From Ceratodon purpureus (taxonomy: Eukaryota; Streptophyta; Bryopsida; Pseudoditrichales; Ditrichaceae), in the NCBI GenBank assembly GCA_014871385.1, contig CM026424.1, positions 17,383,042-17,447,041 on the forward strand: a stretch of 64,000 nt of DNA, written 5' to 3'. Positions 26,061 to 54,000 of the stretch are shown here, piece after piece. Each line of letters starts with the position of its first letter. The first letter of the stretch is position 1. The position numbers and the translations under genes were made by a program. A model generated the notes under the pieces. That model searched no databases. It saw nothing but the letters and a program-made list of their open reading frames with translations, and had not been told where the DNA came from.

Positions 26061-26484
26061 TTTCATCATGTTTTTGAGAACCAAAGTGAGTATGTTGGTC
26101 CATACTCATCTGCATATGTCTATGATATGCAAAATATAGAGCCAGTAAACCAAGTCTACAATATGCAAAATACGGAGCCAGTAAACCAAGTTGAGTACAG
26201 TGATGTTGGCCAGTTCTATAATACTGATGAAATGATGGCGGTTGAAGAATTGCTTTTACACATTCCGAATCATCAATCATCTACATGTATCCAGAGGTAA
26301 ATGCAAAATATGCGAAGCGGTTCTTCAACACCAATACTATTCCAATGAGCAAATTTGTTGTAGCCGAACATCCTTGGAGCGTAGAAATGGAGTTAGCAAC
26401 AATATTTCCAAATGATGATGCAATGTTATAATGTGTAGTTCAGAGGAAAGATGAATCTTGTAATTCTTTCTTCCATTGAGTATC

Positions 26485-28873
26485 AAAGGAAATATATGGG
26501 ATCTCGACCTTATTTATTACAGTGTCCATCGTATCTTGAGATGTAGAAGAATGAGAGATGTCCAGGAGAAGAAAGGAATTTGAGACCAAATTGTGAGCTT
26601 CAAATGAAACAAAATGAGTCTGAGCATATTGTACTCCTCCTCGAAGAAGATACTTTGGAGCTCAAGGTGATGATGTTGATCTTTCTAACAAACAAAAAAG
26701 AAAGTTGACTGATAAAGGGGCAAAGCAGGAAGTGCAATTGAAGGACAAGGAAGATAGGAAGAAAGAGAAGGATGACGAGCTTAAGATGAAGAAGGACGTC
26801 TCAGCCCAGAACAAGGAGTTGCTTAAGCTGGTGTTGAAGAAGGGACCGGAAAAACTTCTTTCCCACGTTAGAACTTCTCCTTCTGGCAGTAGCATGCCAT
26901 GAACCATGGCTCCAATGGTGTCCTAGGTACCTCTTTCAGTTGCTCCCCTTCCTTTGCAGACCATTTACACCATTCCATGCACCCAAGTGGAAGATGTATA
27001 GTGTGGAGTGAAGGTCATCAATGATAGTCCATCAGATATTTTGGAGTTATTTACCAATATCACGGATGGGGACAAGCCACAGATTTGGTTGAAGATTTAG
27101 AAGTGGATTAAAGATCACTAAGGGAATAAGATTCATTGCTCTAGGGGACGTGTGGATGCTACAATGGTGGATTTTATTCTATTTGATGTGCTCAAGGATT
27201 TACCGGTTCCTGGCCTAAGCCTTTCTAGAGAAAACCGTTCAAGGAATAACCACCCCAAAAAACCTATATCTGGAGTGGAGGAGAAGTATGAGTCCAATTG
27301 GATTGTGCATTATTTTGATTTTGCTTCTCAGTTCCTTCATAATGATGGAACAGTCATAGTTTTTACTCCAATTCAAAGTTTATTTCAAACAAGCTCTTAT
27401 ATTGGGCGGATTGGGCGGGCTTTCAAGAGGAAAGGAGGTTATTTGCAATTAATGGACTTTCATTGACTATACCAAATAATCCTTCTCGTACTCACAAGTG
27501 TTTTATGGTGAAGTGCTTTGTTTAGAAAAAGAACGTTCAGGTAGGTGTTCCGGCTTCAAGTTTTGTTTTTTATGATAGGCCAGAACTCACTGTCCAAGCA
27601 TCTAGTTGTCATCTGATGGACATCTCACAAACCTTATGAATGTGGATTCCCTTACAATTGAATCAAGGAATTACAAGCCACTCAAAGGAGCTCCTGAGAA
27701 GACTGTCAATCTTCTCCAGACTCTTGTTGACCTTTGCACCGTGGAGAATGATATTGTTATGGACCTCATCGCATCAACATGTACATTGTGTATCCTCTTA
27801 CTTAAAATTAATAAGTTTATCTATTTCAAACGTTTTATGGTTTATTAATAATTTATTTAATCTTTAGATGCATCCATTGGTGCGTGCAAAAGCATCAATC
27901 GACATGTAATTGCCTTTGAATATGACAATGTTTGGTACAAGGAAGTACTAGTTTCCCTCCTTCCGCAGCGTGATGAAGTCCAGTCAGAGAGCAGGCTTCT
28001 TTGCGTTTTCCAAAGAGGAAGTGCCTCTTGGAAAATGACAATGAGCCTAAGAAGAAGACATGTCCCAAGCGCTCTTATTAGTAAGTCTATACTATCGGTT
28101 TTCAACGTTTGTAGCAATTTCTTATTAGACATAAATTGTTTTCTGAATGGTTCTTACTTTTCTGCTTCAGACGGAGATCGAAAGCGTTGAAATCCCAAAG
28201 AATTGTCTCAAGGTATCTCAACAAGATAAGAAGCCCTATCTGTCCTTTGAAGCTTCCTTACCACTCAAAGAACCTTGCACATGCAACGGCTGCGGCTCCT
28301 TCACCACCATCTTCTCGAAAGCATCTTAGTCCAAATCTCGAAGCGGAGCAGTATTTTAAGTTATTTGCAGAAGTAGATAATATGGTATTATCTGATGACA
28401 GTGACTCCGAGCATGGGTACATTGAGGCAACAAGTGATGACATTTTGTTTAGTTGATTTATCCTATTATTTTGAGATGTGTGCGTTTTCATATTTTCATC
28501 TATTTTCATTTCTTATATTTGATTCTTACATTATTATATATAAAATTTAATTATGCATAATTACATCTATTTTCCCAACTTTGGGCTCCGTTTTAAGTAT
28601 AGGTGCTATATGAAGCCTTTTACAACAATTACATCTACACTTCAAGTATTCTCTAGGCAATAACTAAAGAACTTGACTCTAATGATTCTTAAGGAAATAT
28701 GGTATGTTCATGTGATCTAATGCAATTAATGGTGCACTTTCTTAAAAAATATTGAAAAATTAACCACGGTCGTAGGGCTTCCTTCTCGATTTTAATGCAA
28801 TTTTAATGAAAAAAGGTTCCAAATTATTGAAATTTTGTGCTCGCTGCTCACTACTGACAAGATAGCATTCTTG
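26485..28873 (+). pseudogene. Element C: truncated, decayed relative of the large MULE (methyltransferase half)
   Basis: Degraded copy of the 3' part of gene X and its element end. Aligned landmarks with elements A and B, in order: LLQCPSYLE and CPGEER; the K/E-rich helix and KGPEKLLSHV with SGSSMP; FDVLKDLPVPG (about 27182-27215); an FLHNDGTVIVF strand; NDIVMDLIAST before an intron at the same place as in A and B; then ASIGACKSINRHVIAFEYD. Several stops and frameshifts interrupt it. The right end (28858-28873, CAAGATAGCATTCTTG) matches the element terminus, preceded by a degenerate copy of the GTGAGC repeats. The left part of the element is missing. It is older than A and B and keeps sense codons where they have stops. 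Confidence 0.75.
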
Positions 28874-30961: not shown

Positions 30962-31243
30962 TATCTTATATCAGGAATGCTATCTTGTGAGCGGTGAGCG
31001 GTGAGCAGTGAGCGGTGAGCACTAAATTTTCAATTTTTTGACTATTTATTTGATATTTTGAGATGATTTTGAATGACATGGCATATAGAGGACCTATGAC
31101 CGTGGAAAGTGTTTTAGGGTATATTCCAAAAAGAGTGGCTTCTAAATTGATAAATGTAGAAATTCACACCCGATTCATATGAGTATAAATTCGGATTATT
31201 TTTTCATATATCATATGAATTCCATGCCAAGAAGATCAAGAGG

Positions 31244-31276
<33 letters not shown>

Positions 31277-31718
31277 AAAAAACAAAAAAACAAAAGAAAG
31301 AAAAAAGATTAAAAATAAATAATTAAAAGGATTATAGGGAAAACAAATTTAAAAAATGAAGGAAAATAAGAACAAAAAAAAGAAAAATAAATAAAACAAC
31401 AAAAGAAGAAAAACATCAAATAAATGAAATAAATATAAACAAAATAAAACATAAAACATAAAAAGGAATTAACAAAAAAAGATTAAAAAAAAAATGAATG
31501 AATACATATAGGAGAGAAAGAAGAAAGATTAAAAAAATTTAAACAAAAAAAGGTGAAGAAAGGATATACACAACGGCTATTGCAGATGAATGTGGCTTCT
31601 AGTTTTTTGGGATGAAGAAGTTTTCATCCAAGTGTTGGATGACTAATTTGAAGGTGCAAAATTAATTAACTGAGAGTTAGTTATCCTTAAAACCGACTTG
31701 GGATTTCTGTTCGTAGAG

Positions 31719-31860
31719 GACCCCAAGTACTTACCAGGGGCGCCCACGTACCCCACGTAATTACTAGGGGTGCCCATGTACCCCAAGTAATTACTAGGGG
31801 TGCCCAAGTACCCCAAGTAAATACTAGGGGTGCCAAAGTACCCCAAGCAATTACTAGAGG
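31719..31860. repeat. 30-bp tandem repeat, about 4.5 units
   Basis: Unit is about TACCCCAAGTAATTACTAGG plus GGTGCCCAAG. Element B has the equivalent array at about 57689-57745 with only about two units, so copy number changed after the two elements separated. Reading it as a 10-residue protein repeat gives open frames, but there is no sign of a gene. Confidence 0.85.
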
Positions 31861-32149
31861 TATTTGCATAATAGTGAAGGAAAAAATACATGAGAAAGGT
31901 TTTAAGAAAATCACATTTTATTGTGGTCCCTTCGAGCTGTAATCAAGGAATATTCAACTTCTAAAAAAATTAGTACCATCTTTATGATTCAATCATGTAT
32001 AAAGTCAATTTAAAACATATGGTCGGTATAGAAATTCATACAGAAGTAGAATAAAGTGAGGTTAAGGCAATATATAAAATCCAAAGCCAAAGCTATCGTA
32101 TAATATATAAGTAGGGAAAACATAACAATATAGAGTAAATATGCAATGA

Positions 32150-35100
32150 TCAAGAAGACATCTCGTCATCGCTACAAGTACCAATCCAACCATGATAAGA
32201 ATCGCTATCACTAGATAATGCCACTCTGGCAACTTCTGCAGCTATGTTAAGATAAATCTCAGCATCACGACAAATGCTATCTCTATCAGATGAAATAGAT
32301 GGAGAAGGAGCCGCTAAATAAGCTTGACCCTGCATCTCTGCATAATGTGGAAGCTCTAAAGGTCTAACTGGACTCCTTATCTTGCTAAGATGGCGCGAGA
32401 TAATAGAGCCACCAATGTCATTCTTCAACGCTTTCTTCCGACTGCACATGACAATTTCACAGTTTAATAAATACTGAACTAAATTTTTTAAAAAAAATAA
32501 ACAAATGACAAATGAATGTAAAGACTTACTTACAAGAACGCTTGGGGGCAGTCTTCCTCTCAGGCTCATCGTCTGACTCAACCGAACGTTTCTTCCTCGG
32601 TGAAGGCACAGGAATTGGAGTGGACTCAACCTCCTCCGTGCTTGGAAGAAGAGGCAGCAACACTTGCTTGTACAAGGTGGTGTCAGACTCGAAGCCTATG
32701 ACATGACGCCGGAGACTCTTGGATGCTCGAATGGAAGCACCTGCACAGAAATTAGAGCTCCAAAATATAAGTAAAAATTATTAAATGAAATATAGAATGC
32801 TTTTAAACAAAAAAAAAACCAAATTAGTACCTGTAGAAGCTGTGAGATCCATGACAATGTCATTCTCAATCGTGCACAAATCAATTAGAGCCTGCAAGAG
32901 GTTAGAAGTCTTCTCTCGTGCTCCTCTGAATGGCTCCCCAGTCTCTGAATTAATTGTCAGAGAATCTGCAGTAATCAAATTAGTGCAATGTCCATCAGAG
33001 GAGAGTTTGATGCCTAGGGCACCAAGCTCAGCCCTATCATGAAACTGGAACTTAGACCTTGGAACTTCCTCATCCACATTCTCCATCTTGATGAAGCACT
33101 TGACCATGAAAGTCTTGTGCTGGCGTGGATAACGGTCTGGAATAGTCAATGGCAGGCCATTGATTGCAAACCACTTGGCCTCTTCCTGGAAGTTAGCCCA
33201 CTCTGCCCAGGAAATAAGCTCATTCGAAATGAACTTTGAATCAGGATAAAAAACAATCAAAGCTCCATCATCCTGCAAAAACTACATAGCAAACTCAAAA
33301 TGGGCCTTAATCCATGAAGACTCCATTTATTTCCCTGCTGGAATCTTGGGGTGCTTGTTCCAGGAGGGAATCTCACCATCTTGCCCTAAACCTGGAACTG
33401 GTAAATCCTCTAGAACATCAAAAATGATGAGGTCCACAGCAGCCTCAGCCTCCTCACCTCCAAAATTCCTAGCCTTGCTACCGAGATTCCCCTTGATCCA
33501 ATGCTTGATCTTGCTCCAAATCTCAGGCTCATCCCCCTCCGATAAAGAAGTAAACAAATCCAAAATGCCCATAGGGCAATCATTGATGATCTCAACACTA
33601 GTGTCTACCTCATCCAACTGCGATCATGGAATCGTGTAGATAGTCTGAGAAGGCATGGGGGTAGAGAAATGAGGCACCTGAGGAGCTACAGGAACTATGA
33701 CAGCTTGCATGCTACTGCCTGAAGGAGAAATGCCAACATGAGACATCAACTTCTCTGGCCCTTCCTTCAAAACTAACTTGGCCAATTCTTTGTTCCTTGC
33801 TTCCACTTCTTTCTTGAGCTTAGCTTCCTGGTCCTTCTCCTTCTTCTTGTCTTCCTTCTCCTTCATCTTTGCCTCTGTCTTTGCCTTCTTCTCAGCCACC
33901 TTCTTCTTCTGTCTCTCAGACAGAGCAGCATCATCACCAACCTGCGAGGTATCCTCCTCCAAACTCACCATGTTCTCATCTACAAGCTGCTTCATTAAAT
34001 TCTCACAACTTGCCTTAAGACCTCTCTCTTCCCCGGGGCATTGATCATTCTCCTTGAGCTCAAGGTACCAAGGACACTGAAGGAGATGAGGAGCTCCAAA
34101 ATGCCTCCTCTGATAATCTGTAAAAATGCACTCACTGCTAGAGACATCCACCCATTTTTTAAACCGCTGAGGAATATCCTTCCTATCAATGGCACCCTTT
34201 ACAACCAATTCCCTCCAGAAATACCTCAAGATAGCCCGCTTCATAGCATTCTCAGCTCCAGCCTGGTGGAGAAATGGCTCTTTCTTGGTAAAGGTTCCAC
34301 CCTTAAGGAAAAAAGGCTTAAAGGCTTTCCCCCACAAAGTGATGGAATGAGCCTCAATCCATGAGCCAATATCATCTACAGGATTAGGTAAATCCTTTGT
34401 CCTCAAAACTATGATATCCTCCTCTACAATCTTGACATAACGAATGACTGCCTCCTCCTCTAACTGCAAAAATGATCCAATATAAGAGACATATGAATAC
34501 AAGACATTTTTTTGGTTGAAACAATATGTGACATTGAGGAAAGCAACAATTGTAAAACAAATTCATAAAGCTTAACTTATTGAAACTTACCCCGGCCCAG
34601 AAAGCAGCTTGATCCACCCAAGGCCTGAGAGCTAAATCTGAAGCTGGATGTGGAGGGAAGTTGTACTCCTGCCGACTCTCCTTGCTCATATTCCACCACC
34701 TCAACCACCTCTCCTTATGCTTGGCATTCACCTTAGCAGAGGCAATGAGCTGCAACTTCTCTGGAGTCATCTCTGGATCTGCATAGAAAATGTCAAAGTG
34801 GCGAATAATCTGCACAACAAGATTTCAAATATAATTAAGTCAAATAAGTGGATAAGTAAAATATTCAAACCTAAACAACTACAGTTTTAAGAAAATTGAC
34901 TTATTCATTCATATAGAGATTCAACGCATTAAGTGAATAGAAAAAAAAAAGCAAGTCATCCACTACCTGCTTCAAGCAGGCAATACACAGTACCGCCAGT
35001 GACCTGTAGGCACTGCAACAGGTGAGCAAAGCACGAGACATAATGATGAGACAGCAACCCAACATGCAATAGACAAACTCATAAGGTAACAAGCTCAATG

Positions 35101-38100
35101 GAACGAAGCTCAGAGCAACCGGCAGTAAGCAGTCATCTGGCTGCAGCTTGAAAAAATAAAGTCGACGAATCCACTGCCTGCTTGAGCCAAGGCAGTAGAC
35201 AATGCTAGAGGCAACGCAGAGTAAACACAAGCAAGGTGAGCCAGAAGCTCTAGGCAACGCAGCCTCCACCGAGGCACAAGGTGATACACCAACTTAACAA
35301 GCCAAAACAAATTAAAACATTCATCAAGCTCCAGCACTTGCTGGAGCACATAGCACGAAAAAAGTGTTTCACCTTGCCTTGGCCGGGGCATCCCTCGGAT
35401 CCGAGAGGTGGTCCAGGGGTGTCCTCGGCAATCACTTTTTTCCAAAATCTCACAGACTTTCAAGGCCTCGATGCGAGGCATGAAGAAATAATTATAAACC
35501 AATCATCAAAACAAAGCATCCGGCTCAGTGACTCACATAATACATTGAAAACAAAATACCAAGTGCTCCACAAACTGCCCCGGCCACCTGCTTCAGGCCA
35601 TGCTGAGCTCGAGCATAGAGCTCTCGTCCAACATACACGGCATGGGGTGAAGAGCCTGCAGCGACCAGACAGCTTGCAAAAGGAGCTGAGCTTGCACATA
35701 TACTTGACAAATCAAAAAGAGAAAACAAAGCTCGAGCATGTGCATGAGCACATGCTCATAAAAAAGTGATTGCAGTGGGAAGGGCCGGGGCACCCCTCGG
35801 ATCCGAGAGGTGGTCCAGGGGTGTCCTCGGCAATCACTTTTTTCCAAACCAACACATAAAACCCGAGCCTCCTTGAAAGGCATGTACCTTGAAAAAAAAA
35901 AAGCATCAAATATAGAATCCCTCCGAGATCCTCCTCTCGGATCCGAGACCGGAATATTCCACAAAATTCCATGGCATGCAGCATGAGCTCCCGGCTCCGA
36001 GTCACACACAACTCAATTTAAAAAAAGAAATGCGAGTCACCCACTGCCTGCTTGAACCAAGGCAGTAGTCACTCTCGACAGTAGCCCATATCAAGGCAGC
36101 AGCTGTTATCACACCAAGCTGAAAATCCAGTACAAACTGAGCCAAGCTCGTGGCACGAGGTGTACACAGCAACTCAACAAGCAGGAAATAAAAAAAAAAT
36201 TCATGAAGCTCCAGCACTTGCTGGAGCACACATTCAGAATAAAGTGATTGCAGTGGCCTCAACCGAGGCACCCCTCGGATCCGAGAGGTGGTCCAGGGGT
36301 GTCCTCGGAAGTCACTTTTTCTCAGAACTTATAATAAAATCTGAGCCTCATTGGGAGGCACGTACATTTTAAAAAACAAAAGCATCAAATAATGACGTAC
36401 CTCTTTTAAAAAACCTTCTCCATTGCTCGGGTTTGCTATAGCAATAAACCGATCCAACTGCGTGTTTAGCGCAGTCTTCTTCTTTTCTACTGCCTTAGCT
36501 GCGATCGCCTTTAGTTTAGATGCACTTCCTGGTCTTTCTTCTCCAATGCCTGTTATGAGTGTGTCTCTATAGCCTCGAATAGCCTCCTCCTGGGCCGCTG
36601 AAATCTCCCTCTTCAATAACAAAAATGAAATGTCAGCTTTTTAAAACTGGAGAGCTCTTAAACAAAATCACTGTTGTATACTCAGTATACTCTTGAAGAG
36701 TAGCTTACCTCGTATAAGAAGTTGATAAATGCATCATTTGTGAGGTGAAACCATTTTCTATTTTTTGTCCGTGCCCTCTCCAATATGCTGGCTTGTAAAT
36801 CCTCCTCTTTCACAAGACCCTTGAGTTGGTCAAAATCCAGCAAACCTAGTTGTTGGACACGCTTCACCTCGTGTGTCCAATGCTGTTCAACGTGGTCCAC
36901 TTGATTTTTTCTGCAAAAATTGTGCATTTGAAAACATCAAGTCACAGCAATTTAATTTAAATAACGAAGTATACATAGAGCTTACTGAACAAATATATGA
37001 ATTCTTAGAGGTCATAGCAAAGAAATCAAAATGGAAAAACATAAGATATCTCACATGCAGTGATTGTGGCTTATTTTCTGAGCTCTATGTTTTTTTAAAT
37101 AGCTTAACAAATAATAGTCGCCATTGAGCTCAAAAGGGAACATGGCACAAACTGAACTAACTATCAATGCCCATACTGCAGGCAGCTCCGGACAAGGAGC
37201 AGAAGCTTGCCACAATAGTCTTCGATCCGGATTCACGCTGGAACTCTTGATTAAATTAAAGCACAACCATTCACATACAATAAAAATGCCTAGAAAAAAC
37301 ATGAAAAGGAGAACTTACTTATTCCAGTCAGTCATGGCGTGCAAAAGCATATTGCACTTTGCAGGTGTGACATTGATAATAACCGATCGAACTGAGACAT
37401 GAAATGACGAATCATGCTTCCGAATGGTATTAATAATCTCTGACCAAGCAATGTGGCGATGGTTTCCATCCCACACGTAGAAGTACTTGTTGGAGTACTT
37501 CTCGAAAGCTGGATTTGCTGACAATCTTCTCTCAAATTCTTCATCCTCCTTCTGCCATGTCTCAGACCAGGATGCTCTGTCTTCTTCAGAAACACTACAC
37601 TCTTCCACCTTGAAACTCCTGAGAGAAAGATAGAAGCATGCTGACGCCCTCTTGTATCCACGTGAGAACTTGGCCTTCAGCTTATGAATGTCGTTCTTCA
37701 AAGGCTCCCTGACGTCCTTCATTGGAATCATCCGACATAGGGGAACATCAATCTCCACACCGGGCATGTCCAGCGCGCTTTGTAAAGCGATATGTGACGT
37801 GCCTATCACTGCTCTGCGCAGTTGGTCCTCAACTTCGGCCAAGCCACCATCCTCGTGATCCATGGCTGAAGATGGACTGTTTACCTCTTGTACAGGTGCT
37901 CCAGAGCTCAGGCCCTGGCAAAGTAATTATCAAACATTTCAGTTTCCATTAGGACGGAATGCTTTCCATCAAAGGATCGATTTCTACGAAGCTCAGCTGA
38001 TATTACTTCATTACCACAAACCTGAATGAAACCTTCACCAAATTCTGCAGCTACCCAGCTAATTTCAATTGCACAACACTAAGGTCTAGGATAATGTCTC

Positions 38101-39561
38101 ACAGCTTACATTACCGCAATCAGTCTATCTTTCAACTGCACCAGCCTCAGCTAGAATGCATCAAACCAAACTTCATTTACAAATTGCACACAGAAAGAAA
38201 AGGCTATGTTAAATTTAAAAAACAAGGTTCTGCAAGCGTACCTCAAAGACCTGGTCCTGAGACGATCCTGCCCCTCGAACGCGGTCCATGACTCTAGAAA
38301 TTTGCAGCCAATTTCGTGATTTGGGGGACCCGTATTAATTGACTTATACACCATGACCAAATTAACAAACATTGGTGATGAGTTTACAGCTCTCGTAATG
38401 TTTGCATAGCTAGGATGATGACCGAAATTTCCACATGAACGAGAATGATAGACTGCTGCATTGCCTTGTTGACAGCATAAGTCGCAAGTGTAAGTTCCCT
38501 CTAGCACTCTGAGCCTTAAGCACTCTGAGCCATAATCAGTCTAAGCCATAACCTCGGTGCAGCCAAGAATTACAGCTGAACATCATACTAGCTATACAAA
38601 CAGTAGATGCTAGAATGGCTAAGCTCAGACTGTATTGACCGTAGAATGGAAGTTCTGACGGAGGGACGACTTACCTCTGCAGCTTGAATGGAATCAGTCA
38701 CAAAGCTCTCCAAGGGCGCAAATTCTGAAATCAAATTCCTTCCTCCCAATACTTCCAGATCTTGACCCACTTCCAGTCTCTCAGACCGTAGTTTCTGCAC
38801 AAACATTTTAGGTTTTAGATACCACATTCCTTTCTTAATGCGCATTGAATCCAAAGGTGGGGTTCAGCCCAAACAGTCTGCAGCAAAAAGAAAACCAAGC
38901 AAAAATATTGACAAGAGATCGAAGGTACCGAATTTGCAGAGCTTTCAGAAATTGGAGTCCTTACAGGTTCACTCGGATTGCTGGTGCCGAAGACGAGCTC
39001 TAAGGGTTCCCCGGCTTCAAGTGCATCGCCTCCTCCCTCTCCCGACGGCAACCCGACCTGCAAACCCCAGATACCAAGTCACGGAAAAGTCAACCCGGTC
39101 ATAGGGAGAATCTCGACATTCATGAAGTCCGTCCATTCAATAATTAACATTCACCTAGATTGTATGATCGCGTAATTAATATTTTGTGAAAGCAATGTGC
39201 AGTGCTCCTCAATGTCCCTGACAAGTAGATTAAATAAACTAAGCCGCGGCTGAATCCATTTAGGAAATAAATAAAAAATTTCAACGTACTTACAATTAGT
39301 CAATTACACAATGCAAACTGCATGGTATGGTATACCTGACATATATTGGCCAATGCTTTGATTTTGAGATGCTTGTCATCATCTGAACTAAAAATCCACC
39401 TCTGCAATACGAGCGAGATCGACTTTCTCCTTCCGTCTCTTCTGGGCCGCCACCTGCTTCGGATTACTAAAACCTGAACCTCGCCTTCTCCCTCTACCTC
39501 TAGTTGTACATGATCTAGGAGCCCTCGGCACTCTTGGGCTTGGCTCTTCCTCTTCCCTCAT
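32150..39561 (-). pseudogene. Gene X in element A: ParB-like plus methyltransferase-like protein, broken
   Basis: Spliced gene read leftwards from ATG 39561. A basic first exon (RGRGRRRGS) is followed by small exons. An exon ending near 37317 carries IDVPLCRMIPMKDVREP and YVWDGNHRHIAW (DGNHR at 37456-37470), resembling the ParB/sulfiredoxin fold. Helical exons follow at about 36911-36708, 36612-36402 and 34810-34590. A large exon from 34466 has a K/E-rich coiled-coil (about 33760-33900) and then a methyltransferase-like region: VDLIIFDVLEDLPVPG (about 33392-33440, where DPPY would be expected), FLQDDGALIVFYP, then REKTSNLLQALIDL and DLTASTG, an intron, and ASIRASKSLRRHVIGFESD. The C-terminus is acidic and Ser-rich. 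Stops occur at TIP*SQ, AGK*ME and FAM*FL, and a 2-bp frameshift is present in exon 1. Domain calls are by motif only. Confidence 0.7.
34820..36400. repeat. Gene X intron of element A expanded by repeated fold-back units
   Basis: The intron between the exons ending near 36402 and beginning near 34810 holds three units of about 80-85 bp (35358-35442, 35761-35843 and 36241-36320). Each is bounded by AAAAGTGATTGC-type inverted arms and contains CACCCCTCGGATCCGAGAGG. They sit in longer diverged repeats spaced about 400-480 bp apart, with a CTCCAGCACTTGCTGGAG near-palindrome in two of them. The matching intron of element B has one unit (54162-54244). This expansion explains much of the length difference between A and B. 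Confidence 0.75.
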
Positions 39562-40263
39562 AGGTCTCAGTAACGCTCTCCCGTAAACATAATTCTAACT
39601 AAGACGTATGCTTTGAAATCGACAAGTGCTTAGTACCAGTTTTATAGTGGACTCTTAGTACCCTAAACCTTTCAGACCTATAATACATGCATGAGCATTC
39701 TGTGATTGCTAATGTTTGTGTCAGTATCTTTGTTATATACAATATTAGTATATATTTAAATTGTTAGGTGCAGACCATATTAGAATGGCCATCAAATCTA
39801 TGTAAAGGGAATGACATGATCTTATGTTGAAATTTGTGAACACCAAGTACCAGGTCTGGTATGATATCTCTCCTTAATATAAAATAAGATATGGAACTCT
39901 GTCTCCAAACAAAATAACTATTTAAATTAAAGTTGGCCTGATCACGCTCACATTGACGGCTAATTGTTATAAATGTATTGGTGCACATCTGTGACGGTTT
40001 AATTTCACTGCTGAATGATATAATAGTATTAGCTAAACATGATGTGGTTGGCGGTCTCAGCCGCCTAAGCATTTCAGTTTGTCAGATACATTCGAACTTA
40101 AATTAAGCTATACAGGTCATGGTGAATTCGCCAGTACACTCTATTTCATTTTAGAGTATGTTGGTTGTCCCACCACACTAACCACTAACAACTATATGAT
40201 CTCTACAACCTGGAACACACCAAGCACATCTTCTTACAATCTACTTGCACAAGCTCTCCTCCA

Positions 40264-43200
40264 ATGCATGATTGTACTTCTTCTATCTTCTATAGTACAC
40301 TTAGAATGGCCTCTCTACGGTCTCATGATGAAGGTATTCCTTTTGTGATGTCTGTAGGTCCAGACAATAAGGTAGTTGTGGAGGAGCGATTACTTAGCCT
40401 CACGTTTGGGTTTAGAGCTGGCACTATTTACGTGGAAGAAGAGATCTTTGATGATAATGGTGAGAATCTTGAGTGTGTATTTCAAGTGAAGGATAGTACA
40501 CCCGTTGGTTACGTTTGGACTCTTAGCACTGGAACTTTCAAGGTTTATGGGTTATCACATGCACAGATGTCTGAGTCTACTGTTCTTCTGACCCCTCCCC
40601 CCTCCACGTCAACAGTTCAAGTTCCTGGTCTAGCATCTGTCAAAATTGAACCCAGTGACAACTCAGTACATTTATTGAGTGACTCGGATGATGACACTCA
40701 CAGTGAGATCAAGCTAGGAGACACTAGGTCGAATCCATTTCAGAGTCGTGGATCCCAAGACTCAGGTCGTCCATCTCGACAGGGTAGTCGTTCTAGTATG
40801 TCTGCGTCATTGTCTACAGGGCGTCCACCTATTCACCCTGCTTCCAAAAAGAACAGGAGCATTATGTTTTCCATCAGAATGACAACATCAAGAGGGGGCT
40901 CCCGATCAGAATTATCGAAGATTGATTTTGATACTATTGAACATGAACAAGTGAAGTACTTACCGCCAGTTTACGACGGAGACAAGATTTTCGAGCTGCC
41001 CCCTGTACGTGAAGGAGTTCCAAATACATTCGGAGGTGAAATGGACGGGATGAGCAAGCAGTATGATGGCCACACCTGGTGCAAGACCATGACCACAAAC
41101 ATCAAGAACGAGTATGGCCTCACATATCGTAAGTCATCCTATACCGGACACTTACAATGTCCCAACATGAGTTGTGATTACATCTGCAGGAATAATGGGA
41201 TGGTAAATAGCACTGAATGGTCAGGCGTAGCTTAAAAACCTTTCTCTGTGGGAGGCTCCCCCACAGAGAAATCTACTTTAGCATGCAAAGTATGTTAGAC
41301 ACCTCCTACTTGTCTAGCATTGTGCGAGGCTAGGATCTATCATGTGTCGTCTTCAGATAATAATATGACCCGTGCGACGATTCATTTAGGACGTCATAGA
41401 CATCCTGTATCTCAAGGCAGATGTCAAAATTCTATGGATATCATGTTTGACTGCATAGCTAAGGAGGTTCAGAGGACACATAAACCCAAAAACTCTGCTA
41501 TCGTTCTTGCGGCCAGCAAGCAGTACCTTGCCGATGCTCTGATCCGTCCTACTGCTGGAGGCAGTCATCTGCGGGGAGCATCTATAGATGCTGTAATGGA
41601 CCAATTTGAGACTCTTTCTTCACCGAATATACGGAATTTTGTTTCAAGATCGAAAAGGTTCTTCCGTCAAGGGAATGGAGTCACAGCTAGCATCTTGGAG
41701 CTGAAGGATTACTCCAACTTTGATTTCATCCACCGTAATCAATTCCCTGGACAGAATGAAGGCAAGGTATTTCTGTTCAAGATGTTCAGTGATCGTCCAG
41801 GGAGCGGTGTCGATTTGGTGAAGCGCATGCACCCTGGAGGCGATCTTCAAGACTGCTGGATCATGTTCGATCATATCAAGCGCGTAGCGGACTAGACCAC
41901 TATGGAATGCCACGTTTATGACAGTAAGTACTGTAAAGTTATGACAATTGTCCTTTGTGACATGCAATCTGAAGATGCTGCTGCTCAAGAGTTATTTTGG
42001 CTCAAGCTCAATGAAGTTATGCGGAAGAACGGCCTTGAAAATACTAATTTCAAAGGATTCGTGGCTGACAACGTTGGAGCCAACTGGCACGCTGTTCGGA
42101 AGGTGTATGGGAACGGAGACCCCAATGATCCTATGGAAGAACGGGAACGCACTTGTCTTTTCCACTGGACAAAGTGCCTGCAAAGGGCAACTTCTCGGAA
42201 CATCTTGCCAAGCTTTCAAGACCAACACAAAGCATTGTGCAAAGTATGAAAGCACGCAAAGACCCAAGAGGAAGCAGACGCACAGTACAACGTCATCCGC
42301 GGGTGGTGGCTTTCGTCAGGCGCCACAACTGAAGAAGGAAGGGGTCATCTAAATGATTGGATGGCTTTCTGGCACTTCCGGAACTTACAATGGGGAGGCT
42401 CGAGGCAGCTTGTAAGTTCATTCATCTCTAAACCTTCCATCAAGTATTAGTACGGCCTTGCTTTTATCTCAAATCCTGAAAATGACATTATTTATTTTAT
42501 TGTTTTTCCCAGGATCTTACCCTTGACGAGAGAGCCGACATGCCTTCCTGCAACTTTGCCGAAACCGTCCACAACAGATGGCTTCAACAATCAGGAAACA
42601 CAATGACATGTTTGTACGAGGCAACAGTGGATGATATGATCCGAGCATTCATGCAGATAACAAGTTACCGGTCTTGGCTGAAGGGAGAAAAGGGCGGTAA
42701 AGGTCCGGACAAAGCAGAACTTCGTTTACGCCACGCTCAACGCTCTGGTGACCCCAAGTTGATTGCTGAGGCAGTGAACTCCTACCCGGGAGCCGAGGAT
42801 ATATTGACGAAGAAAGGAGGCTTGGAAGGTGCAGAGATCTTTGGATCTACAAAACGGAAGTTAGATTTGCCACCTAATTCCAGTCATGACTCTCATCGTT
42901 ATGATAAAGTGAATTATTCCATTCCTCGTGATGGCACGAGATCCACTAGAGAACGCATTGAGGAGGCCCTTTCTCAGTCTGACTCGGGTGTTCAACACAC
43001 TACTTCAGTGCAGGAGACAGATTGCGACCCCTCTAAGTGGCACATTGCCAGACTGTCCGGCAAGTCTAACCGAAAATGTCAAGCAATGCAGGCTCATACG
43101 AATGAGAAGTGCGATACCCGAGTGCGCCGAGGTACACATGGTACGCCTGCTTCTACATATGTAGGGCTGAAGAAGGAGTTCAGAACCGATCGCCATATTT

Positions 43201-43883
43201 CTACTGACTTCTGGTTTTGCGCCGATGACATTAATAGATGTGTGAAGGGCACAAAGAAATCGTTTGTGATCGATTGGCCATCTATCCCGCAGACTTGGCC
43301 TGTGAAAATGGGCACGAACTTGACCATCAAAGAGATTTTGGCTCTTGAAGAGGCCGGGTTCCAACTCCAACAACGTGGAGTACTATCACCTCGACGTCAG
43401 TTCCAGGTCTCTTCTAATATGCCGCTTCCAAGGAGTCATTTCCTGGTTCCTGTGGATCCTGATACACACCCGACGACTCGAAACGAATATGCCATCAGGA
43501 GAAGTCCTGACGCTTCTACCTCCGACCACCGCAACAAGTGGAGCAGCGCGGGTCTCATGAACAACTACTGGATTACAAATGTCACATCGATTCCATATCC
43601 AAGATTTGGCTGCGTCATCTCCTTGAAGAGTCCAAGTGAAACGATATATTGTATCACCATCACGGACTTCCCTGGATGTACTTGCCCCGACTTCATGAAA
43701 ATGACTTCGGAAACCCTTGGCAAAAGAGGACACTGGAAGTACTGCAAGCATGTTTATTATATCTTCCGCTATCTATGTGAGATGGATTACAAGGTTGATA
43801 CTTTTATGCACGCCCCTAGCTTCCGCTTCAACAAAGTTATGCGTGTTCTGGAGATGGCCAAAGTTGCTGAACCGCTTCAGTAG
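40264..43883 (+). pseudogene. MULE transposase of element A, broken by stops
   Basis: Two exons (to 42411, then 42513-43883; intron 42412-42512). Order of parts: an N-terminal region of unknown type; a Ser/Pro-rich acidic linker; a Cys/His finger of WRKY-GCM/FLYWCH type (HLQCPNMSCDYIC ... RATIHLGRHRHPV); a Mutator-type DDE core with WIMFDHIKR, then FKGFVADNVGANWHAV and CLFHW; a catalytic-Glu candidate in NFAETVHNRWL; and a C-terminal SWIM finger (CTCPDF ... KYCKHVYYIF). Stops: TAA after SGVA (about 41232), TAG after CKVC (about 41297), TAG after RVAD (41893-41895) and TGA after ALCKV (42247-42249). The last two are shared with element B and replace probable Trp codons. Non-functional as encoded. 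Confidence 0.85.
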
Positions 43884-44064
43884 TTTTACTTATGGTTAGA
43901 CTCTGAAATTGAATGAAGAGTACAGTTCAAAAATACATTATATGAATAGCGGAATTGATTTGTTTTGGCTCTGTGATGGATTTGGAATCCGCAGAACATA
44001 AATAAAGGTCACTATTTATGTTTATATTGTCCACCTCTCGAATGTCTTTGCCGTGAAATGAAAG

Positions 44065-44158
44065 CAAGAGAAGAATATTTCCAAGGTATGAAGGAATATT
44101 CCCCTCTCGGATCCGAGAAGAGAATATTCCTTCATGCCTTGGAAATATTCTTCTCTTG
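44065..44158. repeat. 94-bp near-perfect palindrome centred on GGATCC
   Basis: Two 47-nt arms with three mismatches and no loop, running from CAAGAGAAGAATATTTCC to its complement, downstream of the transposase stop in element A. Element B has a shorter version (about 46501-46545) with the same CTCGGATCCGAG centre. It could form a long hairpin in the transposase transcript. Confidence 0.85.
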
Positions 44159-44477
44159 TATCCGCGACCACAAAAATGCAATAAAAAAAATTATTTTAAA
44201 AAATTGGATATACATTCTGTATGTGACTTGAACAGTAAGCTTTCCTAGCCAACCATTCACATTTGATTGATTTTACGGTTATAGGGTCTACTTTATTTGC
44301 ATTCATATATTCCAACAAAGTGTCCTAAATTGCTCACCATTGTTTGATTGCTCTCAAAAAAATTCAAAAAAAAAAAAAAAAAAATTCAAATTTTTCTCTA
44401 AAAATTTGAAAATTTAGTGCTCACCGCTCACTGCTCACCGCTCACCGCTCACAAGATATCGTCGTTGTATCTTATAT

Positions 44478-46163: not shown

Positions 46164-46752
46164 ACGGGAGAAGTAGCAACGCTATCTTGTGAGCGGTGAG
46201 CGGTGAGCAGTGAGCTGTGAGCCCAAAAAAATTCAGTTTCTGTGTAAAAATTTGAGTTTTTCGTATAATTTTTGAATTTTTTTGAGAGCAATCACACAAT
46301 GATGAGCGATTTGGGACACTTTGCTTGAATATACGAATGCCAAATAAGTAGATCCTATAACCGTAAAATGAATGAAATGTGCGTGGTTTCAGAAAATAAC
46401 TAACTGTTTAAGTTACATACAGAATGGATATCCAAGTTTTTTGAATTTTTTTAATCTCATTTTCGTGGTCTCGGAAGTGGAGAAGGAATATTTTGAAGTC
46501 ATAAAGGAATATTCCGTCCTCGGATCCGAGGAGAGAATATTCCCTAAGTTTGCCAAAACATTGGTTTCCTTCTTAATTTTCACACGAACACATTTGAGCA
46601 GTAAACAATAACTAAATAAAATAGTGACCTTTATTTATGTTCTGCGGATTCCAAATCCATCAAAGAGCCAAAACAAATCAATTCCGCTATTCATATAATG
46701 TATTTTTGAACTGTACTCTTCATTCAATTTCAGAGTCTAACCATAAGTAAAA

Positions 46753-49700
46753 CTACTGAAGCGGTTCAGCAACTTTGGCCATCTCCAGAACACGCATAAC
46801 TTTGTTGAAGCTGAAGCTAGGGGCGTGCATAAAAGTATCAACCTTGTAATCCATCTCACATAGATAGCGGAAGATATAATAAACATGCTTGCAGTACTTC
46901 CAGTGTCCTCTTTTGCCAAGGGTTTCCGAAGTCATTTTCATGAAGTCGGGGCAAGTACATCCAGGGAAGTCCGTGATGGTGATACAATATATCGTTTCAC
47001 TTGGACTCTTCAAGGAGATGACGCAGCCAAATCTTGGATATGGAATCGATGTGACATTTGTAATCCAGTAGTTGTTCATGAGACCCGCGCTGCTCCACTT
47101 GTTGCGGTGGTCGGAGGTAGAAGCGTCAGGACTTCTCCTGATGGCATATTCGTTTCGAGTCGTCGGGTGTGTATCAGGATCCACAGGAACCAGGAAATGA
47201 CTCCTTGGAAGCGGCATATTAGAAGAGACCTGGAACTGACGTCGAGGTGATAGTACTCCACGTTGTTGGAGTTGGAACCCGGCCTCTTCAAGAGCCAAAA
47301 TCTCTTTGATGGTCAAGTTCGTGCCCATTTTCACAGGCCAAGTCTGCGGGATAGATGGCCAATCGATCACAAACGATTTCTTTGTGCCCTTCACACATCT
47401 ATTAATGTCATCGGCGCAAAACCAGAAGTCAGTAGAAATATGGCGATCGGTTCTGAACTCCTTCTTCAGCCCTACATATGTAGAAGCAGGCGTACCATGT
47501 GTACCTCGGCGCACTCGGGTATCGCACTTCTCATTCGTATGAGCCTGCATTGCTTGACATTTTCGGTTAGACTTGCCGGACAGTCTGGCAATGTGCCACT
47601 TAGAGGGGTCGCAATCTGTCTCCTGCACTGAAGTAGTGTGTTGAACACCCGAGTCAGACTGAGAAAGGGCCTCCTCAATGCGTTCTCTAGTGGATCTCGT
47701 GCCATCACGAGGAATGGAATAATTCACTTTATCATAACGATGAGAGTCATGACTGGAATTAGGTGGCAAATCTAACTTCCGTTTTGTAGATCCAAAGATC
47801 TCTGCACCTTCCAAGCCTCCTTTCTTCGTCAATATATCCTCGGCTCCCGGGTAGGAGTTCACTGCCTCAGCAATCAACTTGGGGTCACCAGAGCGTTGAG
47901 CGTGGCGTAAACGAAGTTCTGCTTTGTCCGGACCTTTACCGCCCTTTCCTCCCTTCAGCCAAGACCGGTAACTTGTTATCTGCATGAATGCTCGGATCAT
48001 ATCATCCACTGTTGCCTCGTACAAACATGTCATTGTGTTTCCTGATTGTTGAAGCCATCTGTTGTGGACGGTTTCGGCAAAGTTGCAGGAAGGCATGTCG
48101 GCTCTCTCGTCAAGGGTAAGATCCTAGAAAAAAAAAAAACAAACGATGTCATTTTCAGGATTATAAAAAATAATAAAAATTAACTACTTGATGAAAGGTT
48201 TAAAGACAATTCAACTTACAAGCTGCCTCGAGCCTCCCCATTGTAAGTTCCGGAAGTGCCAGAAAGCCATCCAATCATTTAGATGACCCCTTCCTTCTTC
48301 AGTTGTGGCGCCTGACGAAAGCCACCACCCGCGGATGACGTTGTACTGTGCGTCTGCTTCCTCTTGGGTCTTTGCGTGCTTTCATACTTTGCACAATGCT
48401 TTGTGTTGGTCTTGAAAGCTTGGCAAGATGTTCCGAGAAGTTGCCCTTTGCAGGCACTTTGTCCAGTGGAAAAGACAAGTGCGTTCCCGTTCTTCCATAG
48501 GATCATTGGGATCGCCGTTCCCGTACACCTTACGAACAGCGTGCCAGTTGGCTTCAACGTTGTCAGCCACGAATCCTTTGAAATTAGTATTTTCAAGGCC
48601 GTTCTTCCGCATAACTTCATTGAGCTTGAGCCAAAATAACTCTTGAGCAGCAGCATCTTCAGATTGCATGTCACAAAGGACAATTGTCATAACTTTACAG
48701 TACTTACTATCATAAACGTGGCATTCCATAGTGGTCTAGTCCGCTACGCGCTTGATATGATCGAACATGATCCAGCAGTCTTGAAGATCGCCTCCAGGGT
48801 GCATGCGCTTCACCAAATCGACACCGCTCCCTGGACGATCAGTGAACATCTTGAACAGAAATACCTTGCCTTCATTCTGTCCAGGGAATTGATTACGAAG
48901 GATGAAATCAAAGTTCGAATAGTCCTTTAGCTCCAGGATGCTGTCTGTCACTCCTCTTCCTTGGCGGATAAATCTCTTGGAGCCAGATATAAAATTCCGT
49001 ATATTAGGTGATGTAAGAGTCTCAAATTGGTCTATTACAGCATCCATAGATGCTCCTCGTAGATGGGTACCTCCTGCAGTCGGACGGATCAGAGCATCGG
49101 CAAGGTACTGCTTGTTGGCAGCTAAGACGATAACAGAATTCTTGGCATTAGGTGTCTTCTGAACCTCCTTAGCAATGCACTCAAACATTACGTCCATTGA
49201 ATCCTGACAGCTACCTTGAGATATAGGATGTCTGTGACGTCCTAAATGAATGGCCACACGGGTAACATCTTTATCTGCGGACGACACATGGTAGATCCTA
49301 GCGTCGCACATTGCTAGACAAATTGGAGGTGTCTTACATACTTTGCATGCTAACGTAGATTTCTCCGTGGGGGATCCTCCCACAGAAAACGGCACTAAGG
49401 CTACACCTGACCATTCTGTATTGTTTACCATTCCATTATTCCTGCAAATATAATCGCAACTACGGTTGGGACATTGTAAGTGTCCGGTACAGGATGACTT
49501 ACGGTATGTGAGGCCATACTCGTTCTTGATGTTTGTGGTCATGGTCTTGCACCAGGTGTGGCCATCATACTGCTTGCTCATCCCGTCCATGCCACCTCCA
49601 AATTGGGTTGGAACTCCTTTAGGTAAAGGGGGCAACTCAAAAATCTTGTCTCCGTCATAAACTGGCGGTAAGTACTTCACTTGTTCATGTTCAATTGTGT

Positions 49701-50380
49701 CAAAATCAATCTGCGACAGTTTGATCGGGAGCCCTTTCTAGATGCCGTCAACCTGATGGCAAACGAAACGCTTCTATTTTTTTGGGAAGTAGGGTGAATA
49801 GGTGGACGCCCTGTAGACAATGATGCGGACATACTAGGACGACTGCTCAGTCGAGATGGACAACTTGACTGCTGAGACCGCCCAGACTGGAATGGATTTG
49901 ACCTAGTATCTCCTAGCTTGATCTCACTGTGAGTGTCATCATCCGAGTCACTCAACAAATGCACTGAATTGTCACTCAGTTCAATTTTGACAGATGCTCG
50001 ACCATGAACTGGAACAGTAGACGTTGAAGGAGGAGGGGTCAACCCATATACCTTGAAAGAACAGTAGACTCAGACATCTGTGCATCTGATAACCCATATA
50101 CCTTGAAAGTTCCAGTGCCAAGATTCCAGACATAACCATCAGGTGTACTATCCTTAACTTGAAATATACACTCACGAATCTCTCCATTATCATCGAAGAT
50201 CTCTTCTTCCATGTAAATGGTCCCGGCTCTAAAACCAAACCTTAAACTAAGCAGTCGCTCCTCAACAACTACCTTACTGTCTGGACCTACAGACATAACT
50301 AATGGAATACCTCCATCATGAGCTCGCAGAGAGGCCATTCTAAGAGTACTATAGAAGATGGAAGAAGTACAATCATGCAT
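46753..50380 (-). pseudogene. MULE transposase of element B, broken
   Basis: Same domain order as the copy in element A. Exon 2 is 48123-46753 and exon 1 ends at 48220. The SWIM-containing exon differs from A at only two residues, whereas the Cys/His finger and early core region (about 48740-49680) are roughly 80-85% identical in protein. It shares the TAG after RVAD (48736-48738) and the TGA after ALCKV with A but lacks A's two other stops. Its own defects are a 14-bp templated insertion near 50050 and a 1-bp loss near 49705, both shifting frame before the finger domain. Confidence 0.85.
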
Positions 50381-51029
50381 TGGAGGAGAGGTGGACTGGG
50401 AATACAACAATAGAATGAGTTGTGACTCCAAGACATTGTAGAGACTATATAGTTCTTCGGGGGCTAAATAAATCGCCACCTTACATGTTCTTAAAATAAA
50501 TAATATGTACAGGTGGATATTGCATGACCTGTAGAGCACAAAATTTAGTTACTTAGTATCTGACATACTAAAGTGATTAGGCGGCTGAGAGCGCCAATAT
50601 GGTTATCTTTTGCTACTACAAATTTAACAAGTAGCCGTCAGTTTAATCTTTTAGGATTGACCTTTAATTTAAATAGGGATTTGTTAAGATACAGTTTATT
50701 AAATTGGACGTTCTAATTTGCGTCCAGGTCATGAATCGATAATTAGTGGATCTCCATAATTCAAACATAATATTATGTCATACTCCTTACAGATCGATGT
50801 TGGACTTCATTGAAGGATCTAGCGGCAATAATTCAAACGTTTACTAATATTATAGTTTATTTAAATACTGACACGATCCATAACAGGTACCACTCACAAT
50901 ACAAGTGTTATAGGGATTAGAGGAGAAGATACACATAGTCTGCTAAGTGACAATGAACGTCTCACTTATCAATTTCATGACAATCCTCCCAGTTAGTTGT
51001 ATGTTTGCGGGAGCGTGTTAGTGAGACAC

Positions 51030-54000
51030 ATGAGGGACGGGGAGGAACCTAGTACAAGAGTGCCTAGGGCTCCTAGATCATGTAGGACTAGAGGTAGAGG
51101 GAGAAGGCGAGGATCTCATTTTGGAAATTCCAAGCAGATCACATACCAGAGGAGACGAAAGGAGAAGGATGCTCTCAGCCGTATCGCTGAAGTGGACTAT
51201 ATATCAGATGAACCTGGCCATCTAAAAATCAAGGAATTGGCTACTATATGTCAAGTATACCAGACTTATTTGTTTGCTCACTACTTTTTCCTCTTTATGT
51301 GCATTTTAAGTTTATCATGTTTATTTTATTATTTCATTATGTCTAACCCGCCCAAGCTCTTGCTATGGACAATTTCTCCAAGGAATTAGTTTGGCCATTC
51401 AATTTCACGTTTGAGAGTTAGAGGACTTGAGTGAAATGTAGTTGGTGAGTTTCTTAGTGTCTCAATCATGTAATTTCCGAGAGGACTGTATAGTGAGGCC
51501 TGACGCAAGCCAGGTGCTATTACTTTGACTGCAGAGCCTCACGGTTGACCAAGATACCGAGGGTACGGCAGAGTCACTTCGAAGTGCTAAAGACGAAGCA
51601 GAAGGCGCTGACCTCGGTAGCAAGGGCGACTCTGGACCTTCTCTCACTTCGACGGAGCCATATCACGAGCAGGTAAGTTGTAAGCTCGAAAGTGTTTCAG
51701 TGTGCTTTTTTTTAGTTTCGCTAATCCCAAAATTAAAACTCAAATGATTTGTTAATCGCACCCAGTGCGATCTTGCTTCGAATTCAGAACTGCGAAACCC
51801 TAGCTCTATTCCAGCCGCAAGTTTGTAACAATCTCTTGTTGGGTACTCAAATTCTGTACTCGCAGGGAATCCAGTTGCTTGATACCCCAAGGGAGGTCCG
51901 ATTCGATCTCGAAATTGTGGACGATACCTTCTGCGTTGCGCTCCTGGAGCTCCTGAGTGACGCAGCGAATTCCGCTAACATGGACACTGTAAGCTAGACC
52001 TTTCTAATCGTCTACTTGGTCCATTGATTTGTAGTTTGTTGAATCTTGAAGGTACTTCGAAATTCGAACAGTCTTTTGTGGGTGTATGGATTACTTGACA
52101 CAATTTTCAATTCGGGCTCGACTTACGTAGGATTCAGTCCTCACGAATCTGGAAATTTTTTCATGTCGGATTCGAACCGGATGTGAGGGAATTATGTGAG
52201 GGCATTTATATTAACAGGAGCCTGATCTGCGCAACAATTAACCGGGACTGTCATGCCTGGATCACACGTCCATAAGCTGGTACTTGAGCCGTGTATTGAT
52301 TGTTTTCTGCGGTAGCAGTGCTCGTCCTACTCGTTCTCATTATCCAGACATCATTCTAGATTTCGTACAGGTAAGAGCTGTTTTGGGACGTCTCGCAGAC
52401 TTGCACCACTTTCAGCCTTACCTCAGATTGGTCAAGGCTTCGTGACGCGGCTTCGTGACGACTGTAGCTATGCGTAGCTGAAATTTTATGCTTCACACTT
52501 TTAGATGCTAGCATTCGCACTTCTGGGTATTTCCTTTACCTTATCATCAGGCCGCTCCATATCGAGCTTGTCTGATCCACAAGGTATGCAACATGGACAC
52601 AAGGTTTCGAAGTAGCTTGTTAGTACGTTTGTAGTTAAACAAAAAATTCTCTTGTAGCTACCGGCTAGTGCAGTTCAGCCTTCGAATTAAGTCAGCTGTA
52701 GCTTCAAGGTAAGCAGATTGTTGCTTGACAGCGCTGATTACCATTGCTTGTTAGTTTACCAGTCATGTGGTAATTAAGTCCAGGTTTAGTTTAGAAATAT
52801 GGAGAACTCTTGCGTGCAAATTACTTCCTCAGTTGTCTACAGATCATATGGTTAACCGTGCATTGATAAAATTGATTGAGAATCTGAAATGTTTTGTACG
52901 TGATTGCAGATGACCAGCGAGCATGGGATGGAGGAGGTACCTCGCACGACCGCTAACATGGATAGTACCTTAGGAGGACTAGCAGCAATGGAAAACATGT
53001 TACGCAGAGAAGTGATGGGTACCTCACACCTTGCACTTCAGAGTGCGGTGGAATTCCCAGGTATGGAGATTGACGTGCCACTCTGCAGAATGATCCCCAT
53101 GAAGGATGTGAGGGAGCCACTGCAGAACGACATTCAAAAGCTCAAGGCCGAATTCGCGCGTGGATACAGGCGGGCATCGGCATGCTTCTATCTCTCATTG
53201 AGGAGTTTTAGGATGGAGGAATCATATGTCACAGAGACGGACAGGGCATCGTGGTCAGAGTTATGGCGCAAGGAGGGTCTTGAGTTTGAGGGGCGCTTGC
53301 TTTCTACTCCAGGGTTGGAGAAATTCTCCAACCGATTCTTCTATGTTTGGGACGGGAATCATCGGCACATTGCCTGGACTGAAGCATCAACGCTCTTCAT
53401 CAACAAGATGCAGAATTTCATATTTCTGTTCGCTCTGTTATTATCAATGTCACACCTCAAAATTGCAATATGATGTTGCACGCCATCACTGATTGGAACA
53501 AGTAAGTATTCCAAACATTTCTATATTTTTAATAATGGCTTTGTAGATTCTGTATAAACTTGTCCATTTACTCGCATTGCCAATGTCAATTTTGGTTTTA
53601 TAATTATCTATGAATCTTTGTGTAATGTGTTTCAGGAAGAATCAGGTAGACCACGTGGCGCAGCACTGGACCCATGAGTTGAGGCGTGTCCAACAGCTCG
53701 GTTTGTTGGACTTTGACCAATTGAAAGGATTGGTGAAGGAGGAGGACTTGCAGGCAAGCATTCTAGAGTGGACACGAACCAAAAACAAGAAATGGTATCA
53801 TCTTACGATTGATGCATTCATCAACTTTTTATACGAGGTAAGCAATATTGTTTTCCTATCCTTGCTACGACCTCTAATAATGTAAGTACTCTAGAACTAA
53901 CTATATAATACTGTGCATCCAGAGGGAGATTTTAACCGCTCAAGAGGAGGCAATTCGAGCATACAAAGACTTTTTGATAACAGGACTGGGAGAAGACCGG

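Follow-up and report, generated by a model that had tools for sequence, protein, structure and literature searches.

Eukaryotic transposons that carry accessory anti-silencing proteins, such as VANC, or epigenetic enzymes, such as the TET/JBP and SET proteins, are already known. According to the excerpt of PMC5735166, VANC reverses silencing and binds short motifs that are tandemly arrayed in the non-coding DNA of the element. Here we describe gene X (positions 32150-39561, minus strand) of element E1, a transposon with a divergent transposase gene that lies in a 64,000-nucleotide stretch of contig CM026424.1 from the moss Ceratodon purpureus (assembly GCA_014871385.1; this whole stretch is called the window and is numbered from its first letter). 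An earlier note, made from the letters alone, had described X as transposon cargo in which a ParB-like domain appears to be fused to a beta-class DNA methyltransferase-like domain. We find that X goes beyond mere cargo: as the second gene of a high-copy element family it is constitutive and under selection.

Gene X is a constitutive gene under purifying selection

Gene X has at least eight exons and starts with the ATG at 39561. The element and the parts of the gene are as follows.

30972..44467, no strand: element E1 of 13,496 bp, bounded by terminal inverted repeats (TIRs; arms 30981-31059 and 44380-44458)
39325..39561, minus: N-terminal basic exon (RGRGRRRGS), with a frame break read by eye; 3' border approximate
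37319..37863, minus: exon A, putative ParB/DGQHR-like domain containing IDVPLCRMIP...DGNHR, with DGNHR at 37453-37470; 5' border uncertain, frame open to 37926
36709..36910, minus: exon B, with GT-AG borders common to loci L039 and L042
36401..36610, minus: exon C
34591..34809, minus: exon D
32831..34463, minus: exon E-G, helical linker and methyltransferase-like domain, with three in-frame stops; holds motif IV (VDLIIFDVLEDLPVPG, ~33405-33434), motif X (REKTSNLLQALIDL, 32898-32921) and the first half of motif I
32530..32740, minus: exon H, rest of motif I (GASIRASKSLRRHVIGFESD) plus a basic tail
32150..32441, minus: exon I, acidic C-terminal tail and stop

All of the strings quoted in the earlier note were found on the minus strand within 32150-39561, and the spliced gene that it had drawn holds up: the motif I string is joined over a GT-AG intron, from 32831-32852 to 32740, and the GT-AG exon borders are repeated in other copies.

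Copies of the two genes were sought throughout the genome. The ParB exon (exon A) matched at all 150 places scored (the best 150 of 1863 candidates), and the transposase search gave 122 places (the best 121 of 2199 candidates; the last two rows of this list are pieces of one copy). A divergent ParB exon lies within 6 kb of 100 of the 122 listed transposase places, in one further case the two lie on the same strand, and 21 places lack a listed ParB exon within this distance, against a random expectation of 0.9 on average and 4 at most (200 draws). With at most one mismatch allowed, the 24-base core of the TIR was found at 327 sites in the 362-Mb genome, and its reversed pattern at none. Among the 100 of these sites that were listed, 17 adjacent inverted pairs lie less than 20 kb apart, and their gene content was taken from the listed ParB and transposase places. 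Fourteen pairs are long (12-16 kb); 13 of these contain both genes and the remaining one contains X without a listed transposase. The three short pairs (3-5 kb), at C1:1312689-1315815, C2:10361742-10366430 and C2:22231761-22235844, have neither listed gene inside and are likely non-autonomous derivatives. In six divergent pairs compared by eye with that of the window, the transposases are 61% identical and the ParB exons 43-45%; thus, X evolves faster than its partner.

Selection was estimated as the ratio of nonsynonymous to synonymous substitution rates (dN/dS) by the NG86 method. ParB exon pairs, which are not independent of one another, were used if they had no stops, more than 120 codons and a dS of 0.1-1.0, with L009 and L012 left out as duplicates of E1 and L040. 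Their median dN/dS is 0.126 (303 pairs), every pair being below 0.5. For the methyltransferase domain the median is 0.132 (71 pairs, maximum 0.227) and for the whole E-G exon 0.190 (86 pairs, dS 0.1-1.2); here E1 and E2 were excluded and a few stop-bearing rows were retained. Both halves of X are under purifying selection. The cargo description understated the standing of X, which lies inside a complete element: the pairing at 100 of 122 places, the gene content of the long TIR pairs and the selection show a constitutive gene.

The copies of X in the window are pseudogenes. The earlier note had advised a search for intact copies, and such copies turned up: locus L042 is free of stops from exon A to exon I, so undamaged copies exist elsewhere in the genome. 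When the 548-residue exon of L045, a copy from another assembly, was searched against the genome, all 79 scored copies matched at 45-48% identity (the best 79 of 3860 candidates), and 51 of the 79 have no internal stop over the 548 residues.

The N-terminal domain is probably ParB/Srx-like

Nine diverse members of exon A were aligned, and all nine have PLCRM, GY and GNHR in common. The G-x-H/R-R active-site box is present, its GNHR being invariant in the nine. The Pfam model ParB_N did not match exon A, and sequence searches of Pfam, NCBIfam and PDB gave no believable ParB match; a PDB match to ribosomal protein eL24 (E 0.0086) was judged spurious. One member of the nine, L044, matched DndB (PF14072) at E 0.032, with residues 74-148 on profile positions 75-149. 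DndB is assigned to the ParB superfamily in the excerpt of PMC10853773.

In profile-profile comparison the best match was to this branch. In local hhalign runs the exon A alignment gave a probability of 39.8 and a score of 32.0 against eight DndB sequences, 17.2 and 27.1 against 29 DndB sequences, and 15-20 and 26.6-28.6 when 36 moss rows were used. The match covers 114-116 columns, including DGNHR on DGQHR and the AM.D.NK/F.DLN segment. For either DndB set, 150 shuffles of the columns gave no score as high as that of the observed alignment (best 23.5 and 22.0), and the reversed sets scored 16-17. As a control on the method, an unrelated methyltransferase profile was compared in the same way: 75 of its 150 shuffles scored as high as the profile itself, which places it at their median, although single shuffles reached 23.0. 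These comparisons give moderate support to the view that the N-terminal domain of X is probably ParB/Srx-like and nearest to the DGQHR (DndB) branch. The ParB/Srx domain of the earlier note survives as probable in this form, as a best match to the DndB/DGQHR branch, and not as a match to ParB_N or Srx themselves, for which hhalign gave a probability of 1-2%.

Exon A could instead encode a lineage-specific DNA-binding fold unrelated to ParB/Srx, in which DGNHR is a coincidence and which was fused to the methyltransferase-derived domain. Several results speak for this alternative or against the assignment that we prefer. The sequence searches gave no significant ParB match, and one spurious PDB match scored as well as E 0.0086; in the scans that found DndB, the unrelated families UPF0227 (0.022) and NCBIfam blaCVI (0.021) did equally well. 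The DndB probability drops as rows are added, from 39.8% to 15-20%. The ParB_N and Srx alignments stand above shuffles with nine rows and not clearly so with 36, and a fold prediction for exon A from three sequences reached a predicted local distance difference test (pLDDT) score of 35. Against it stand the identity of the best profile-profile match, a ParB-superfamily family aligned over more than a hundred columns with DGNHR on DGQHR, and the shuffled and reversed controls. We regard an unrelated fold as possible but improbable.

The C-terminal domain descends from a methyltransferase and has an altered motif IV

Several profile searches bear on the C-terminal half. The Pfam family N6_N4_Mtase (PF01555) matched one third of exon E-G of E1 at E 0.0022, L039 at 5.6e-5 (just under the cut-off), and exons of L001 and L002 at 5.8e-8 and 2e-7 (over it); the same Pfam searches gave no methyltransferase match for two exons of L042 or for the motif IV exons of L001 and L002 taken alone. 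A profile search of the genome found 32 methyltransferase places at E 1e-3 (among the best 150 of 772 candidates). Compared with solved structures, a five-member profile matched DpnA at E 4e-7, a score that comes almost wholly from the X-I part. It also matched CcrM at E 3.4e-4, colinear over 2-225 and so over most of the domain's length, and all five members matched DNA methyltransferase families of PHROG. A tblastn search with the L002 domain (E 0.01) hit 86 phage-collection and 44 plasmid records; among the 20 matches listed, every one with a named feature is a methyltransferase. The motif order IV, X, I is confirmed by alignment and by the colinear CcrM match. As judged by this homology, the C-terminal domain of X is shown to descend from a beta-class N6-adenine/N4-cytosine methyltransferase, and the class and motif order read from the window alone agree with the independent DpnA, CcrM and PHROG searches.

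The earlier note, correct on motif order and ancestry, overlooked what stands in place of the catalytic DPPY. Motif IV reads DVPED in all 14 sampled copies (L046-L059), in L039 and in L045; it is DVPEG in L042, DIPEN in L060 and DLPEG in L061. The canonical form (D/N/S)PP(Y/F/W) is absent from these D-x-P-E copies and from the window copies, which read DVLED in E1 and E2 and DVLKD (FDVLKDLPVPG) in a third copy. The window copies thus have L where the 14 sampled sister copies carry P, which may reflect decay. The replacement of the DPPY aromatic residue by Glu itself is found in the window's family and in three further families whose domain is still constrained; decay was rejected as the cause of the loss of DPPY, since the constrained copies have D-x-P-E in common. 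In known enzymes the aromatic residue stacks on the target base, so its replacement by Glu would be expected to abolish or alter catalysis. Because motif IV lacks DPPY, we class X as methyltransferase-derived and not as an active enzyme.

A separate multicopy ParB-methyltransferase subfamily (L001 with L043, L002 with L044) has the same ParB-to-methyltransferase order and a motif IV of DQPY (L001) or DQPF (L002), a near match to the canonical form. Its ParB exon is represented by at least 58 rows at 56% identity or more among the 122 rows listed. More families are represented by L060 and L061, whose ParB exons share 37-43% identity with that of L044; motif I of L060 is close to canonical (DWKAGTG).

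It is conceivable that X is an active DNA N6-adenine/N4-cytosine methyltransferase in spite of D-x-P-E, marking element DNA for protection or to keep a promoter open. The methyltransferase domain is strongly constrained, nearly all aligned rows retain motif I as D-[LI]-x-[AT]-S-T-G as well as motif X as E-K-S/T, and the L001/L002 subfamily has D-Q-P-Y/F. Set against this, most motif I glycines are changed and the aromatic residue is Glu in every D-x-P-E copy named above (the 14 sampled copies, L039, L042, L045, L060 and L061), which makes an active enzyme unlikely in our judgement. A broader possibility would join the two kinds of motif: a land-plant transposon superfamily would have taken up a prokaryotic-type ParB-methylase and kept it to modify DNA under the element's guidance or to sense modification, its D-Q-P-Y/F members writing N6-methyladenine or N4-methylcytosine on element DNA and its D-x-P-E members binding that DNA non-catalytically, so that together they would run an adenine-mark or anti-silencing system in plants. 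This we put forward only tentatively, as an idea with the lesser chance of being right. The high copy number of X and its many open-frame copies bear on the question of whether adenine marks written by transposons occur in any plant DNA.

Elements of the window

X and the transposase gene run divergently from the element middle in both E1 and a second element, E2. The other features of the two elements, and a third copy of X, are as follows.

46174..58384, no strand: element E2 of 12,211 bp, in the opposite orientation to E1; TIR arms 46178-46272 and 58286-58380
30987..31020, no strand: 7-bp iteron array GTGAGCG, 4.9 copies, in the left TIR of E1 (Tandem Repeats Finder)
44419-44452, 46189-46222 and 58336-58369, no strand: the same GTGAGCG array at the other three ends (Tandem Repeats Finder)
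40254..43883, plus: E1 transposase gene, divergent from X, decayed; SWIM-like CTCP...KYCKH C-terminal segment recognised by eye
46756..50390, minus: E2 transposase gene, divergent from X
52904..57394, plus: E2 gene X, decayed, whose ParB exon has a frame break downstream of DGNHR; three stops in common with E1
26478..28456, plus: third copy, older and decayed, of the methyltransferase half of X (65% nucleotide identity); motif IV FILFDVLKDLPVPG

E1 is flanked at both ends by a perfect 10-bp target site duplication (TSD), TATCTTATAT, and E2 by a perfect 10-bp TSD, ACGGGAGAAG, for which an 11-bp reading, GACGGGAGAAG, is equally perfect. The GTGAGCG array is present at all four ends. The 10-bp duplications fall within the 8-11 bp range reported for Mutator-like elements (excerpt of PMC6446971). 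The SWIM-like, CLFHW and Cys/His segments of the transposase were recognised by eye only. The Mutator element of the earlier note therefore has its TIRs, 10-bp TSDs and by-eye Cys/His segments in its favour, but because no Pfam transposase model matched, we use Mutator-like only as a working label.

The two elements differ unevenly. The 3' block of X (31810-34821 in E1, 54725-57734 in E2) is 97% identical, shared stops included, whereas the ParB exons are 74% identical (dN 0.145, dS saturated) and the N-terminal exon of E1 is 76% identical in nucleotides to 50963-51265 of E2. The block was thus probably exchanged or copied recently, after decay, a pattern that suggests gene conversion or a mosaic origin.

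The long intron of X in E1 holds, at 35270-36391, a repeat of about 175 bp in three related copies, and inspection by eye showed GGATCCGAG-like stretches resembling this repeat in L042 and L041. Just inside the left end of E1, at 31720-31861, is a tandem repeat with a unit of 30 bp and 4.7 copies. Elsewhere in the window are ordinary plant-like genes with open reading frames (ORFs) at 3124-4356 (minus), which we take to be sugar-lactone oxidase-like, and 60544-62121 (plus), presumably glucan endo-1,3-beta-glucosidase-like.

Origin and relatives in other assemblies

It is plausible that X was acquired from a prokaryote or a virus. In IMG/VR no relatives of either half of X were found, so a viral origin is unsupported. 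The single GTDB match, L045 (CADCWO010000058.1), is a 4.7-kb contig in a cyanobacterial metagenome-assembled genome (MAG). An intron lies at its A/B border, its exons A to I are open, and that assembly has no other place of the kind. The intron and the lone occurrence point to eukaryotic contamination of the MAG, and a cyanobacterial donor was rejected on these grounds; we read L045 as DNA of another plant, probably a moss.

A proposed role for X

On balance we favour the explanation that X is the second gene of a Mutator-like family and a DNA-binding anti-silencing or transposition helper, whose methyltransferase fold is probably non-catalytic in the D-x-P-E families. The protein would begin with a basic N-terminus and continue with a DGQHR-type domain of the ParB/Srx superfamily, a helical and charged linker, and the methyltransferase-derived domain. 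In the nucleus it may bind to DNA of the element, most likely at the 7-bp iteron arrays of the TIRs, and by analogy with VANC and MURB may act for the element against silencing or in transposition. In the D-x-P-E families the fold would serve without catalysis, as a module that grasps DNA or senses S-adenosylmethionine (AdoMet), and the D-Q-P-Y/F subfamily may still methylate DNA. The nuclear DNA binding and the iteron targeting are inferred, and so is the helper role, by analogy with VANC (excerpt of PMC5735166) and other accessory proteins of Mutator-like elements (excerpt of PMC6446971).

Several observations weigh against this explanation. Counted from the 150 listed ParB places, 99 are paired with a transposase, one has it on the same strand, and for 50 the transposase list shows none within 6 kb, although both lists stop at the best-scoring places. 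No transposase was seen in the 2.0-3.4 kb fetched upstream of the DQPY loci, either among ORFs read by eye or by tblastn. Pfam transposase and SWIM models, searched to E 2, did not match the E1 ORFs, and the E2 ORFs and read-through frame, searched to E 5, gave no transposase and only a meaningless match to PanZ (0.16). The iterons could be bound by the transposase instead of X. As for motif IV, the DVLK of the third window copy means that P-E is not universal, and L041 is out of frame and unreadable there.

A different function could be assigned to the same protein, namely that of a nicking or nucleotide-hydrolysing enzyme of the ParB-superfamily DNase/NTPase kind, acting in excision or integration, with the methyltransferase fold lending DNA affinity. 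The ParB-methylase Bce_0392 is reported to be a non-specific nickase (excerpt of PMC5512222), DndB is linked with nuclease or NTPase activity (excerpt of PMC10853773), and GNHR is invariant in the nine aligned members; the element, however, already encodes its own transposase, and we consider such an enzyme doubtful. Although Mutator-like elements often carry host gene fragments (excerpt of PMC6446971), it is very improbable that a host or microbial gene was captured at random and is carried as a passenger in the form of X, as in Pack-MULEs, and an unconstrained captured fragment is ruled out by the association and selection tests, 100 of the 122 listed transposase places being divergently paired with X, both halves being under purifying selection, and X and transposase diverging in parallel across families. 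Given its high copy number and many open-frame copies, X has a function that is directly testable in a moss.

Comparison with known systems

In searches limited to the open-licence PMC literature we found no eukaryotic DNA transposon with a conserved second gene derived from a ParB-type adenine/cytosine amino-methyltransferase, and an earlier report is possible. By description, the nearest counterparts include bacterial ParB-methylase fusions such as Bce_0392 of Bacillus cereus, which joins ParB-like and adenine-methylase domains in one protein (excerpt of PMC5512222), as X probably does. X differs from it in being spliced, eukaryotic and located inside a TIR transposon, in having extra basic and helical regions, in carrying DGNHR (DndB-like) and not the classical ParB motif, and in having D-x-P-E for DPPY in the window's family. 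DpnA, CcrM and YhdJ are colinear homologs with the motif order IV...X-I; the L002 domain is about 24-26% identical over the full length, motifs IV and I of X are altered, and a large N-terminal part is fused to it.

Among transposons, VANC of the Arabidopsis VANDAL/Hiun elements is likewise the second gene of a Mutator-like element (excerpt of PMC5735166), and MuDR with mudrB, like other Mutator-like elements with accessory ORFs, combines a second gene with a TSD within 8-11 bp (excerpt of PMC6446971). In contrast to VANC, whose motifs lie in non-coding DNA, the arrays of the X element sit in the terminal repeats, and in contrast to MuDR the two genes of E1 and E2 are divergent. To our knowledge, the domain content of VANC is unlike that of X, and mudrB has neither a methyltransferase nor a ParB domain. 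Fungal DNA transposons with TET/JBP dioxygenases, and elements that carry SET proteins, resemble the moss family in placing an epigenetic-type enzyme beside the transposase (excerpt of PMC12730594); X differs from the TET/JBP elements in having the fold of an AdoMet-dependent amino-methyltransferase and not of a dioxygenase, in another host and beside another transposase.

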